Under the pieces are notes generated by a model, which made no database searches, was not told where the DNA came from, and saw only the letters and a list, made by a program, of their open reading frames with translations. Shown piece after piece: positions 17,994 through 23,719 of a DNA stretch of 38,055 nucleotides; position 1 is the first letter of the stretch; each line of letters opens with the position of its first letter. The position numbers and the translations under genes are program-made. The stretch is taken from contig JAJFFZ010000168.1 in assembly GCA_021776395.1 (NCBI GenBank), forward strand, positions 1-38,055, read 5' to 3'. The DNA comes from Hyphococcus sp. (GTDB lineage: Bacteria > Pseudomonadota > Alphaproteobacteria > Caulobacterales > Parvularculaceae).

Positions 17994-20720
17994 TTATTGG
18001 CCGGAACCAGAAGAAAGAACGCTGAGAAGCTTTTTCTCAATCTTCTTGAGTGAAACGGCGTCGGTGATTTTACGCCTTTTGCGGTCGCACAGATAAAACG
18101 CGTCAACCGCGCGCTCGCCATAGGTGGCGATATGCGCCGAGACGATTGAGACTTCCATATCGGCGAGCGCGGCGGCAAGCTCAAACAAAAGGCCGGGCCG
18201 GTCGAGCCCCTCGGTCTCAACCACGGTTGCATCTTGCGAGGCGTCAATTTCAATGCGCACCGCTGGCGCTACTGAAAATATCGAGCGCCGGTCGCCAAGC
18301 CGGCGCCGCAGGCTCGGCGGTTTGGCGGGCGCCTTACGCGCCGCCGACAATAAAGCGCCATGCAGCCGGCGCGTGAGATTTAAATCCTCAAGCGGGGCGC
18401 CGTCTGGCGATTGCAGCGCGAAAATATCGAGCGCTTTGCCGTCGGTTGTCGTCAAGGCCTGCACGATGCGCACGCTGAGCCCGCTTGCGGCGACCGCGCC
18501 GGCAATATCGGCGAGCAGGCCGGGACGGTCATCTGCATATACAATCGCCTCAAGGTCGCCGTCGCGCGGCGTTACCGTCACCGCCGCATCGGCGCTATCG
18601 GTTTGCGCGGCTTGCGCAAGATGGGCAAAGCGCACGATAATGTCGGGATCGACGGAGCGAAACATCGTATCCGTCAGCTGGCTGAGGAAGTCTTCTTTCT
18701 CCGCCTCGCTCCAGCCCGTAAGCTGCACCTTTGTTTGCGAACGCGCCGCTGATGCCCGCGCCTCAAGGCGTTCGTGCAGCATTGCTTCGCCGCCGTCAAA
18801 CCAGGCTGCGCTCGCCTCATATAGTTCGGTGAGCTGGCCGCGGATCACCTCATCCCAGGACTGCCAGCCGACAATGCGCAAATGGCAAACCGACAGAACC
18901 AGCATCAGGTCAAGCCGGGCGCGACTGCCGACAGATTTGGCGAAATTTTCTATCGCCCGCGCCTCGGTGAGGTCGCGCCGTTCGGCGGTGCGCACCATCA
19001 GAAGGTGATTGGCCGTCCCCCAACCGACAAGCACAGCATCCTCAGCGCTAAGCCCGAGACGCCGGGCGATCCGCTGCACCAGCTTTTCACATTGAAGCGC
19101 AGATTTATCGCTCAGTGTCCAGATGGATTCGCGCAGCAACATGGCCAGAAAATAAAGCAGCGGCGTATCGGCGTTTTTAATAATTTTCGTTGCAATCGGG
19201 TGGTCGTCTTTCAACTGGCCACGACGGATGCGCGCTAACACGGCGATACTGCGCAACACATGTTCGTCCAGCGTAAATCGCCGGTAAAGCCCGTAATCGA
19301 TGCGCCCGACAATCGAGCCATAGGCCGGAATGTATTTCCCAAGCAGGCCGGTTTCGGTCATCACCCGCAGCACCCGCACAGTGTCGGAAGATTTTGTGAG
19401 TATGCCCTCAAACAGAGCCGCAATGCTCGCATCCTTGCGCACGTCAGAGGTTACCGTCGGCGTCTGTTCGGCAATAACCGCCAGCGCATCGGGATGGAAA
19501 TCGATTTTCGGTTTTTTGGAAAACGCTCTGAACAGGCGAAAGAAATCGCGCGGGGTTTTGCGCGCCCGCGCCGCGCTCGCAAAATCGAGCCGGCCGCCGC
19601 GAATGCGCAGATTGGGTTTGCCAGGCGCTTCGTCCGATTGCAATTCCTTTGGCAGCAACGCCGGCAAACGCGGGCGGCGCTTGGCGCGTTCTTCTTCCAG
19701 CTTGGCGAATAAAATACGCGTCAGTCGCCCGACCTCCACTGTGTTCAGGAAATAATGTTTCATCAACCGTTCGGCGGCGCTGATATTTTTACGGTCCGCA
19801 TAGTTCAGCCTGGCGGCAATTTCCGGCTGAACATCAAATGTCAGCCGCTCATCGGCGCGCCCGCGCAAATCATGCAGCTGCACCCGCACTGACCACAAAA
19901 ATCGCTCCGCCTTCTGGAGTGCGCGCCGTTCCGACGCGTCCATGATTTTATCGATGGCTTTGTGCTCTCCGATGGCGCCGCCATAGACATACTTATAGAG
20001 CCACCGGATTGTCTGCACATCGCGCAGGGCGCCTTTGCCCTCTTTGATGTCCGGCTCAACCAGATAACGGGTCTCGCCGGCAGCGGCGTGACGCTCGTCC
20101 TGTTCCCTCAGCTTCGCGGCGACAAACTGGTTTTTTGTGCCCCAGCGCAAACGGTCATAACTGCCGTGAAAATCATCAAACAGTTTTTTTGACCCGCATA
20201 AGAGCCGCGCATCGAGATAGGCGGTGCGCGCAATCATATCCTGTTTGGCGAAATCAATCGCAGTTTTGGGCGTGTGGACGCCATGGCCGATTTTCAGCCC
20301 GCTATCCCACAAAGCGTAGAGCATAAAATCGGTGACCGCGCGCAAGGATGCGTCGTCACCAGACTTTTGCGTCGGGCGATGCAGAAACAGAAGATCGATA
20401 TCTGAAAACGGCGCCAGCTCGCGCCGGCCATAGCCGCCAATGGCGCAAAGCGCGATGTCATCGCCGGCAGGCGAGAGTTTGTAGAGCGCCTTGATGATGG
20501 CGTCCATCGAGCGGGCAATGCGCGCGGCGACCTTGTCGCCGCGGTCTGAATGGCCAAGCCCATCGGCGCGCAGCACAGGCATCCTCTCGCGCAACAGCTT
20601 GCCGACCGCGCCATGGCGCTGGCCGGCGCGCTCAGCGGCCACCGCAGACTTCAGGGCATCGGCAAAGGCGGCAGCGTCTAGCAGCGCGGCTTTGGTCTTC
20701 GATGGTGATTGCGATGTCAC
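17994..20720 (-). CDS. glnD: PII uridylyltransferase GlnD with a degenerate HD domain
   Basis: GlnD senses glutamine and uridylylates or deuridylylates PII proteins. The 908-residue protein has an intact nucleotidyltransferase motif (AIGGYGRRELAPFSDIDLL, about 120-140), the GlnE/GlnD-like helical region, and two C-terminal ACT domains (DDRPGLLADIAG and LDRPGLLFELAA). The HD phosphohydrolase domain has lost its metal residues: where family members have HDIxKGxxGDHS, this one has LRESIWTLSDKS (about residue 523), and the QHLLM or HHLLM motif reads NHLLM (about 570); LDEHVL (about 486) is kept. Deuridylylation may therefore be absent. No ATG is available: I choose GTG 20720 (read MTSQSPSK) because a TTG at 20780 lies upstream of a possible -10. 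Confidence 0.93.
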   Translation of the reverse strand: MTSQSPSKTKAALLDAAAFADALKSAVAAERAGQRHGAVGKLLRERMPVLRADGLGHSDRGDKVAARIARSMDAIIKALYKLSPAGDDIALCAIGGYGRRELAPFSDIDLLFLHRPTQKSGDDASLRAVTDFMLYALWDSGLKIGHGVHTPKTAIDFAKQDMIARTAYLDARLLCGSKKLFDDFHGSYDRLRWGTKNQFVAAKLREQDERHAAAGETRYLVEPDIKEGKGALRDVQTIRWLYKYVYGGAIGEHKAIDKIMDASERRALQKAERFLWSVRVQLHDLRGRADERLTFDVQPEIAARLNYADRKNISAAERLMKHYFLNTVEVGRLTRILFAKLEEERAKRRPRLPALLPKELQSDEAPGKPNLRIRGGRLDFASAARARKTPRDFFRLFRAFSKKPKIDFHPDALAVIAEQTPTVTSDVRKDASIAALFEGILTKSSDTVRVLRVMTETGLLGKYIPAYGSIVGRIDYGLYRRFTLDEHVLRSIAVLARIRRGQLKDDHPIATKIIKNADTPLLYFLAMLLRESIWTLSDKSALQCEKLVQRIARRLGLSAEDAVLVGWGTANHLLMVRTAERRDLTEARAIENFAKSVGSRARLDLMLVLSVCHLRIVGWQSWDEVIRGQLTELYEASAAWFDGGEAMLHERLEARASAARSQTKVQLTGWSEAEKEDFLSQLTDTMFRSVDPDIIVRFAHLAQAAQTDSADAAVTVTPRDGDLEAIVYADDRPGLLADIAGAVAASGLSVRIVQALTTTDGKALDIFALQSPDGAPLEDLNLTRRLHGALLSAARKAPAKPPSLRRRLGDRRSIFSVAPAVRIEIDASQDATVVETEGLDRPGLLFELAAALADMEVSIVSAHIATYGERAVDAFYLCDRKRRKITDAVSLKKIEKKLLSVLSSGSGQ

Positions 20721-20779
20721 GTAAAACCCGGCGTTGAAGCTGCGGCAAGTGATTGTCGCCTGCGCCGGGCCTGAATTCA

Positions 20780-20816
20780 ACTATAGCAAAATCAATGAAT
20801 ATTGATTTCGCTATGG
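20780..20816 (-). promoter_or_regulatory. Imperfect 16-bp palindrome with a possible extended -10 for glnD
   Basis: Left arm CTATAGCAAAATCAAT (20781-20796) and right arm ATTGATTTCGCTATGG (20801-20816) match at 14 of 16 positions around GAAT. On the minus strand TGCTATAGT (20788-20780) fits an extended -10, giving a start near 20773 and a short leader to GTG 20720. No good -35 is seen. It could be an operator or an RNA hairpin. Confidence 0.35.
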
Positions 20817-20989: not shown

Positions 20990-23719
20990 TCAAGCCGGCG
21001 GCTTTATCGCTTTCAGCCGGTATAAAATGTTCAGCGCTTCTTGCGGGCTTACCGCATCAGGATTGACCTCCGCCAGCGCTTCGACCAGCGGGTCGACCTC
21101 CGGGTTCGGCTCGCATTCTTTTGCCGGCGCAGCGGCGGCAAACAGCGGCAATTCATCCACATGACCGCCGGCGCGGCGTTGTTTTTCAAGCGCCGCCAGA
21201 ACGCCTTGCGCGCGCACCACCACGCTGCGCGGCAGGCCGGCGAGCTTTGCGACAGCAATCCCGTATGACCGGTCCGCCGCGCCCGGCGCAACCTCATGGA
21301 GAAACACCACATCGCCTTTCCACTCGCGCACCTTCATCGACATATTAACGAGACGCTCCAGCGGATCAGACAGCGCCGTCAGCTCATGGTAGTGGGTTGC
21401 GAACAAACCGCGGCAACGGATCGCGTCATGGAGATGCTCAACCGCCGCCCAGGCGATGGAAAGCCCGTCAAAGGTCGAGGTGCCGCGGCCGATTTCGTCA
21501 AGCACCACCAGCGAGCGCGCCGTCGCCTGATTGAGGATCGCCGCCGTCTCAACCATTTCAACCATGAAGGTCGAGCGGCCCTTGGCGATATCATCAGCCG
21601 CGCCGACACGCGAAAACACCCGGTCGACGACGCCGATATGGGCCGATGCGGCGGGCACGAAAGAGCCCGCCTGCGCAAGAATGGCGATTAGCGCGTTCTG
21701 GCGCAGGAAGGTTGATTTCCCGGCCATATTCGGCCCGGTAATCAGCCATAGCTGCGCTGCGCCATCGGCGCTGAGGCGGCAATCATTGGCGACAAACGCC
21801 GCCTCGCCGGCCGCGCGCAACGCCCGCTCGACCACCGGATGGCGCGCGGCCTTCACATCAAATGCGTTGCTGTCATCGACAACCGGACGGACATAGGCCT
21901 CATCGACGGCAAGTTCGGCCAGCGCCGCGCTGACGTCAATTTCCGCAAGCCCGGCCCCCGCCGTTGCGAGCGCATCGCGGCGCTCCAGAACCGTGCGCGT
22001 TAGCTCAGTGAAGAGTTCCAGCTCACGCGCCAGCGCCTCATCTTTTGCACGGGTGATCTTGGCGTCGAGGTCCGCCAACTCGCCGGTGGTAAAACGCACC
22101 GCACTGGCCAGTGTCTGGCGATGAATGAACGTTTCATCATGCGGCGCGGAGGCGAGCTTGTCGCCATGGGCCGGCGGGGTTTCAACGAAATAGCCAAGCA
22201 CATTGTTGTGGCGAATTTTGAGCGGCTTGACACCGGTTTGCTGGCGGTATTTTGCTTCCAGGCCGGCAATCACCCGGCGCGCTTCATCACGCAGCACGCG
22301 AACCGAATCGAGACCGGGATCGAAACCTTTGGCGATAAATCCGCCATCGCGCGCCAGCATCGGCGCATCGGCGCCAATCGCCGCGCGCAAGGTTGCAATC
22401 AGCGTGGAGAAACCTTCGCCTTGACGGTCCTCGATGGCGACAAGGCTCGCCTCAACCGATGGCGGCGGCGTATCAAGATGTGGCGCACGCGCAATGATTT
22501 CAGCAATGGTTCGGGCACTGATTAATGCATCACGAATGGCGGCCAAATCGCGCGGCCCGCCGCGCTCCAGCGATAGCCGCGACAGCGAGCGGGCAATATC
22601 CGGCGTTTGCTTCAGGCTATCGCGCACCGAAAGCCGCAACTCCGGCGCGCGTTCAAAAAACCCCACCGCATCGAAGCGATGGTTAATCTTCACCGGGTCG
22701 GTCAGCGGCGCGGACATGCGCGCCGCCAACAATCGCGCGCCGGCGCCGGTGACGGTGCGGTCCACCGCCCATAAAAGCGAGCCTTTGCGCCCGCCGGCCT
22801 GCGCCTGGGTGAGCTCCAGCGAGCCCCGGGTCGCGGCGTCAATCGCCATTGTCTCAGTTGCCGCGGCGCGTTTTGGCGCGCTCAAAGCCGGCATTCTGCC
22901 GGCTTGCGTGAGCTCCACATAGCCAAGCAGCGCGCCCAGCGCCGCACATTCGGCGCGGTTAAAATCTCCGAACCCATCGAGCGAGGCGACGCCAAACACA
23001 TCCAGCAAGCGGCGCTGGCCGGCGGTGGAATCAAATTGCTGCGCGGGCAGCAGCGTCAGCCGATCGGCGGGACAAACCGAAGCGATGCGCGCCGCCCAAT
23101 CGCTTTGCTCCCCATCGGGAGCAATTAATTCCTTCGGCGCAATAACGGCGATGTCTGAGGCGATGGCGTCCTTGTTTGTAGCGCGCACCGACAGCTCGCC
23201 GGTCGAGACATCCGCCCAGGCAATCGCCGCATCCTCGCCGCTACGTAAAATCGAAACGGCGCACAGAAAGTTGTTGGCGCGCGCATCAAGCAGCGTTTCT
23301 TCAAGGATGGTTCCCGGCGTCACGGTGCGCACCACCTCGCGGCGCACCACTGATTTTGGCCCGCGCCTTTTTGCCTCCGCCGGGTTTTCCATCTGCTCAC
23401 AAATTGCGACTTTAAAACCCGCCTTGATAAGCTTGGCGAGATAAGGCTCAAAGGCGTGAAACGGCACGCCGCACATGGCAATCCCCTCGCCATTATGCTG
23501 GCCGCGTTTGGTCAGCGTGATATCGAGGACGCCCGCGGCGGTTATGGCGTCGTCAAAGAACAATTCGTAGAAGTCACCCATGCGATAAAACAGCAATGCA
23601 TCGCCGACAGTTTCGCGGATAGCGTGATATTGCACCATCATTGGTGTCGCTGGCATTGGCGTTGCTGGCAGCGCCGATGCTTTTGCAGGTTTATTCTTGT
23701 CAGGCGCGGTATCGGTCAT
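20990..23719 (-). CDS. mutS: DNA mismatch repair ATPase MutS
   Basis: It binds mismatches and starts methyl-independent or nick-directed repair with MutL. The 909-residue length is normal for alphaproteobacteria. The mismatch-wedge motif is GDFYELF (Phe50, Glu52). The clamp and lever regions follow, then the ABC-type ATPase: Walker [11 protein letters not shown] (about 655-664), the loop [14 protein letters not shown], Walker [13 protein letters not shown] (about 738) and the family's [11 protein letters not shown]. The ATG at 23719 begins [13 protein letters not shown], a variable 27-residue extension. It heads the mutS-glnD-murJ-trpS run but the 269-base gap before glnD with several hairpins may make glnD separately expressed. 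It is divergent from the metallopeptidase gene. Confidence 0.98.

Follow-up and report, generated by a model that had tools for sequence, protein, structure and literature searches.

Introduction

GlnD is taught as a two-way enzyme, and its two sites set the nitrogen signal. In the passages cited here from a study of R. rubrum GlnD, the nucleotidyltransferase domain uridylylates PII and the HD domain deuridylylates it (PMC3480911). The cited part of a review also assigns the uridylyl-removing activity to the HD domain, so that two activities lie on two domains. In the same review, actinobacterial GlnD is described as adenylylating GlnK, and the response of a Tyr51Ala GlnK to nitrogen status at AmtB as almost wild type; on that account PII can act without turnover of the mark (PMC4285133). 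No HD-less or one-way GlnD, and no work on GlnD of the Parvularculaceae, was found in the titles and opening lines of the open-access literature.

The Parvularculaceae are mostly marine bacteria. In this study, we analyzed a glnD gene in a stretch of 38,055 nucleotides from Hyphococcus sp., a member of this family (the window).

The window protein is a GlnD with an intact transferase motif

The glnD gene is flanked by mutS (20990-23719) on one side and by murJ and trpS on the other. Its features are listed in Table 1. The TTG start is uncertain, as the alignments to most relatives begin at about residue 20-30. The protein scored 655.4 bits against NCBIfam TIGR01693 (UTase_glnD), exceeding the cut-off of 519.4, and it carries the G-G-[YF]-G-R ... 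S-D-x-D motif, the PF08335 domain and two ACT stretches. Narrower GlnD models fell below their cut-offs, for example PRK05092 (771.7 against 959). By its sequence, the protein is a member of the GlnD family and, judged by its metal site, not of the bifunctional kind.

The initial annotation had described the transferase motif and two ACT domains as kept, and both descriptions held. Gly115, Gly116, Asp127 and Asp129 of the transferase motif were found in 55/55 readable Parvularculaceae rows and Arg119 in 54/55. The two Pfam ACT stretches scored 55.5 bits (cut-off 27), and their limits in Table 1 follow the secondary structure elements of the predicted model. AlphaFold2 modeled the whole protein with a pLDDT of 89.0 and a pTM of 0.85. 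A sequence search of the PDB at E <= 0.01 returned no GlnD structure.

Table 1. Coordinates of glnD features in the window, and of divergent GlnE-like loci in other genomes
Feature	Position	Strand	Basis
glnD, 928 aa, TTG start as listed	17994..20780	-	NCBIfam TIGR01693 match
Nucleotidyltransferase motif GGYGR...SDIDLL, residues 115-131, intact	20388..20438	-	Motif reading
GGYGR	20424-20438	-	
SDIDLL	20388-20405	-	
GlnD_UR_UTase domain, residues 218-358	19707..20129	-	PF08335, 126.3 bits (cut-off 21)
Pseudo-HD domain without metal site, a homolog of the uridylyl-removing HD domain	18786..19346	-	Intact-HD profile A2
LDEHVL, retained motif of GlnD	19254-19271	-	
First ligand His, in LDEHVL, kept as His507	19260..19262	-	
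LRESIWTLSDKS, residues 549-560, altered HD motif segment of GlnD	19101-19136	-	
HD pair replaced by Arg550-Glu551	19128..19133	-	Alignment to E. coli GlnD
GDHS His position, now Ser560	19101..19103	-	
NHLLM	18996-19010	-	
His592 of NHLLM, kept	19005..19007	-	
Last ligand Asp (E. coli Asp597), now His633	18882..18884	-	
ACT pair, C-terminal, about residues 736-815 and 840-924	18009..18575	-	Pfam ACT
Divergent GlnE-like loci	L207:2676-5546, L208:900-3791, L209:3836-6661, L210:3143-6049, L213:2608-5460		

The HD domain of the window protein lacks its metal site

The ligands were read against the E. coli K-12 GlnD columns His471, His514-Asp515 and Asp597. The HD segment is 188 residues long in E. 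coli and in the nearest relatives of the window alike. The intact-HD profile A2 matched the window domain at E = 9.0e-45, which supports homology. The Pfam HD model (PF01966) gave no match to this domain at E <= 0.01, and scored 49.5 bits with E. coli GlnD and 47.3 bits with the HD domain of a Kordiimonas GlnD. The H...HD...D site of bifunctional GlnD and of the HD phosphohydrolase superfamily is absent from the window GlnD. As first proposed, the HD pair is gone and LDEHVL is kept, with its first ligand His. A second metal His had also been called lost; the GDHS position does read Ser560, and if the His of the HLLM motif was meant, that His is in fact kept. The loss of the site was confirmed, and it reaches beyond the range 18995-19275 first assigned to it, as the last ligand Asp is also replaced (Table 1). 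Displacement of the HD residues to a nearby position was rejected: the alignment is gap-free at the HD motif, and no HD pair occurs within the domain.

The altered domain is predicted to be folded. AlphaFold2 modeled it alone with a pLDDT of 91.6 and a pTM of 0.88. In a structure comparison with this model, the best chain was 3wfo_A (Z 16.1, rmsd 3.1, 171 aligned). HD hydrolases ranked lower, for example PhnZ 4n6w (Z 8.8, rmsd 3.5, 128 aligned), and for helical models a Z below about 13 may reflect a common arrangement only.

The loss extends across the Parvularculaceae

A search with the window protein matched 55 of 62 Parvularculaceae genomes. One of them, G465, was discounted (sole match E = 4e-4 over 75 residues), leaving GlnD in 54/62. 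These gave 56 GlnD rows, 55 of them readable per ligand column; in the HD Asp and last-Asp columns, the unread cell belongs to a half of the G024 GlnD. In that genome (contig 194, L034), GlnD appears as two open frames split near residue 515, perhaps by an assembly frameshift. Its halves and the truncated G034 copy (L037) stand outside all four alignments, which were chosen for spread (A1, 17 family rows; A3, 27 family rows; A4 and A6, 68 and 45 rows in all), and outside the tree.

No Asp was found in either Asp column of the family. The HD Asp column held 49 Glu and 6 Gln, and the last-Asp column 40 His, 12 Arg, 2 Tyr and 1 Asn. Position 550 was His in 39 rows, Gln in 13 and Arg in 3, the last being the window and its two nearest relatives only. 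The HD loss was also seen in named strains of Amphiplicatus, Aquisalinus and Parvularcula. The initial annotation had treated the loss as a trait of this organism; the loss is real, but the 54 genomes and the tree described below make it old and common to the family. A sequencing or assembly error at 19100-19160 is refuted by the identical loss in GlnD of 54 genomes and by the open frame, and with nothing in its favor we consider it practically impossible.

The same rows bear on whether a rearranged set of ligands, drawn from His507, His550/Glu551, His592, His633 and others, would let the altered domain keep removing UMP. His507 (42/55 readable rows), His550 (39/55) and Glu551 (49/55) are frequent in the family, and all 27 rows of alignment A3 share Glu506, His527 and Cys632. 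However, no ligand position is constant across the Parvularculaceae: we read H/Q/T/E/N at 507, H/Q/R at 550, E/Q at 551, H/P/R/Y/F/K/Q at 592 and H/R/Y/N at 633, and the window itself has Arg550. Removal by such a site is therefore improbable.

Intact HD ligands outside the family

Among the GlnDs read residue by residue, none outside the Parvularculaceae was HD-less. All four ligands (H, H, D, D) were present in 65/65 named loci checked (of 80 named) and in 15/15 other loci of the same order. In 83 class-level rows, which partly overlap those sets, HD was found in 82/82 readable rows and the last Asp in 79/80. These rows comprise 29 best and 30 low-scoring matches of 262 class genomes (one in two pieces) and 23 references, the references being the rows shared with the earlier named and order sets. 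In 30 further low-scoring GlnDs of the class and phylum, HD and the last Asp were present in 30/30; the remaining matching genomes of class and phylum were seen as scores only.

Two further loci differ in other ways. One GlnD outside the family (L279, G164 contig 6) keeps the His and HD and has Asn at the last Asp. A GlnD-like open reading frame (L371, G313 contig 1, about 1515482-1515856) has a degenerate transferase motif and keeps the HD pair and the last Asp. It is perhaps an eraser-only GlnD, the mirror image of the window GlnD.

Origin of the pseudo-HD domain and selection on it

A quick tree was built on residues 80-360, without the HD domain; it included 31 of the 56 rows from the family and 27 from elsewhere. 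The 31 family rows lay beyond one branch with an SH-aLRT of 100, and mapping of the HD state on this tree needed one change. The conversion of the HD domain to a pseudo-enzyme probably dates to the common ancestor of the Parvularculaceae. With 0.91 changes per column, the transferase part also shows a long stem branch.

The pseudo-HD domain is under purifying selection. Its dN/dS between the window and four relatives was 0.039, 0.093, 0.097 and 0.134, with the HD-domain dS near saturation in the last two, more distant comparisons (1.46 and 1.52). For the whole GlnD, the same four comparisons gave 0.079, 0.086, 0.124 and 0.113. The dN/dS was below 0.26 in every GlnD domain where it was computable (two values were not).

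Conserved columns were lost mainly from the HD domain. The family lost 22 of 44 HD columns conserved in 27 HD-intact GlnDs, compared with changes in 7 of 61 conserved transferase-domain columns. Measured against 14 reference rows outside the order, the family lost 26/47 HD and 4/49 transferase columns, and 13 rows of other families in the order lost 4/47 and 0/49. The p-values of the Fisher tests on column loss are descriptive only, because columns were treated as independent. E. coli His464, conserved in HD-intact GlnDs, is Arg500 in 31/31 family rows of the tree alignment, which looks like a retooling of the pseudo-HD domain. Given the stem branch of 0.91 and the 7/61 changed columns, the transferase may also have shifted.

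Tyr51 of PII is found where GlnD is found

Two canonical PII genes, one GlnB-like and one GlnK-like, were found in the window genome, and each encodes Tyr51. Canonical PII was defined by the T-loop pattern. Two weaker PII-superfamily proteins of this genome (L003 and L004, G000 contigs 248 and 8) are without a canonical T-loop. Across the family, Tyr51 was present in 72/72 distinct canonical PII genes, from 42 of the 54 GlnD-positive genomes. Of the other 12, 10 lay outside the PII searches, G011 had no match and G024 a weak match only.

GlnD was not found in 8/62 genomes: four of genus g2, three of genus g4 and G007. The four g2 genomes had no PII match either. In the three g4 genomes, PII has Leu51 in place of Tyr51. 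G007 had no GlnD, yet Tyr51 was present in both of its PII genes; this genome is 84% complete, and the exception is likely to come from an incomplete assembly. Tyr51 of PII thus tracks GlnD even though the metal site of the eraser is gone. This coupling rests on few independent losses, because the Leu51 genomes all come from a single genus and probably record one event.

These data also bear on whether GlnD is a decaying relic, with both activities lost or going. The long stem branch and the eight genomes without GlnD, one of them the incomplete G007, fit decay. However, the transferase Asp pair persists in 55/55 readable rows, dN/dS is low in every computable domain, and Tyr51 persists where GlnD persists, with another residue in its place in the three g4 genomes without GlnD. 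Decay is accordingly hard to credit.

Resetting of PII and the downstream enzymes

Another HD-domain protein had been suggested as a possible replacement, and we searched for GlnD-type HD domains. No second one was found at E <= 1 in 36 family genomes, apart from a stray match at E = 0.66 (G025). The search recovered GlnD, which is fragmented in G024 and G034, and would miss a deuridylylase of another type.

A GlnE match was found in 59 of 60 genomes searched, the window genome included; in G029 the match is a divergent protein only. Most genomes of the genus to which the window belongs, and single genomes of the genera g3, g5 and g6, also encode a divergent second GlnE-like protein, usually 940-1010 aa long (Table 1). 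This protein looks like a pseudo-GlnE, because its first half is without the SDID motif of GlnE. None was seen in the other families of the order among the matches listed, where several genomes have an unlisted third match. A link between HD loss and this protein was unsupported: G033-G035 have an HD-less GlnD and two canonical GlnE matches only.

Glutamine synthetase gave 19 matches in 17 genomes, and the adenylylation Tyr was kept in 16/16 sequences read (13 from the family, 3 from elsewhere in the other families searched). In the genome of the window, the only match was weak and non-canonical. In three family genomes without PII and GlnD (G028, G459 and G458; L323, L328 and L333), the adenylylation site reads DLYAMS, with the Tyr kept, and most others read DLYDLP.

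One alternative is a cycle that still runs both ways, in which an unrelated phosphodiesterase, gained or recruited, resets PII-UMP and GlnD forms the forward half only. Tyr51 and GlnD are retained together, a switch cleared by growth alone would be slow, and the balance of PII and PII-UMP should still matter, because GlnE matches are present in 59/60 genomes. However, no candidate eraser emerged from a search that covered GlnD-type HD domains only. We regard such a cycle as possible but somewhat doubtful, and its probability overlaps that of our preferred explanation, as both share the loss of GlnD's own removing activity.

A proposed one-way GlnD

In our preferred explanation, which agrees with the uridylylation-only enzyme suggested by the initial annotation, GlnD with its pseudo-HD domain probably still uridylylates Tyr51 of PII and no longer removes UMP. 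Its observed basis is the lost metal site, the kept transferase motif, the selection on the domain and the association of GlnD with Tyr51. From these we infer the two activities, a gating by glutamine, what the pseudo-domain does and how PII is reset, as follows. Under nitrogen limitation, the nucleotidyltransferase would uridylylate Tyr51 of PII, and glutamine at the ACT domains would gate this reaction. The folded, selected pseudo-HD domain may act as a regulatory module or scaffold. Removal of UMP from PII would no longer be a function of GlnD; lacking the HD ligands, the enzyme would write without erasing. PII-UMP would be reset by dilution and turnover, by proteolysis or by an unrelated enzyme. 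On balance, the better guess is that the whole family uridylylates PII in one direction only, that the dead HD domain has become a sensor or scaffold, and that growth, proteolysis or a hydrolase of PII-UMP yet to be discovered clears the mark.

With its writer retained and the catalytic site of its eraser lost, the family can reveal roles of the HD domain beyond catalysis. Its GlnD tests the need for enzymatic reversal of PII modification and may lead to a PII-UMP hydrolase not yet discovered. A natural control is provided by the three g4 genomes with Leu51 and without GlnD.

Comparison with known systems

The window GlnD shares the GGYGR/SD.D motif, PF08335, the ACT pair and a homologous HD domain with the bifunctional GlnD of E. 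coli and R. rubrum. It differs from them in the loss of the HD metal ligands, E. coli being compared by alignment and R. rubrum by description. Actinobacterial GlnD, compared by partial description only, acts on the equivalent Tyr51 but transfers another nucleotide. In C. glutamicum, proteolysis of GlnK reportedly serves as a control, according to the title of a 2004 paper. A dead HD domain is also known from RelA, where, in contrast to SpoT, the synthetase retains the folded domain in a regulatory role, without catalytic activity. The window GlnD resembles RelA in keeping such a domain, and differs in its transferase. In bacteria with RelA, another protein carries an active HD domain, whereas the search of 36 Parvularculaceae genomes yielded no GlnD-type HD domain beyond that of GlnD.
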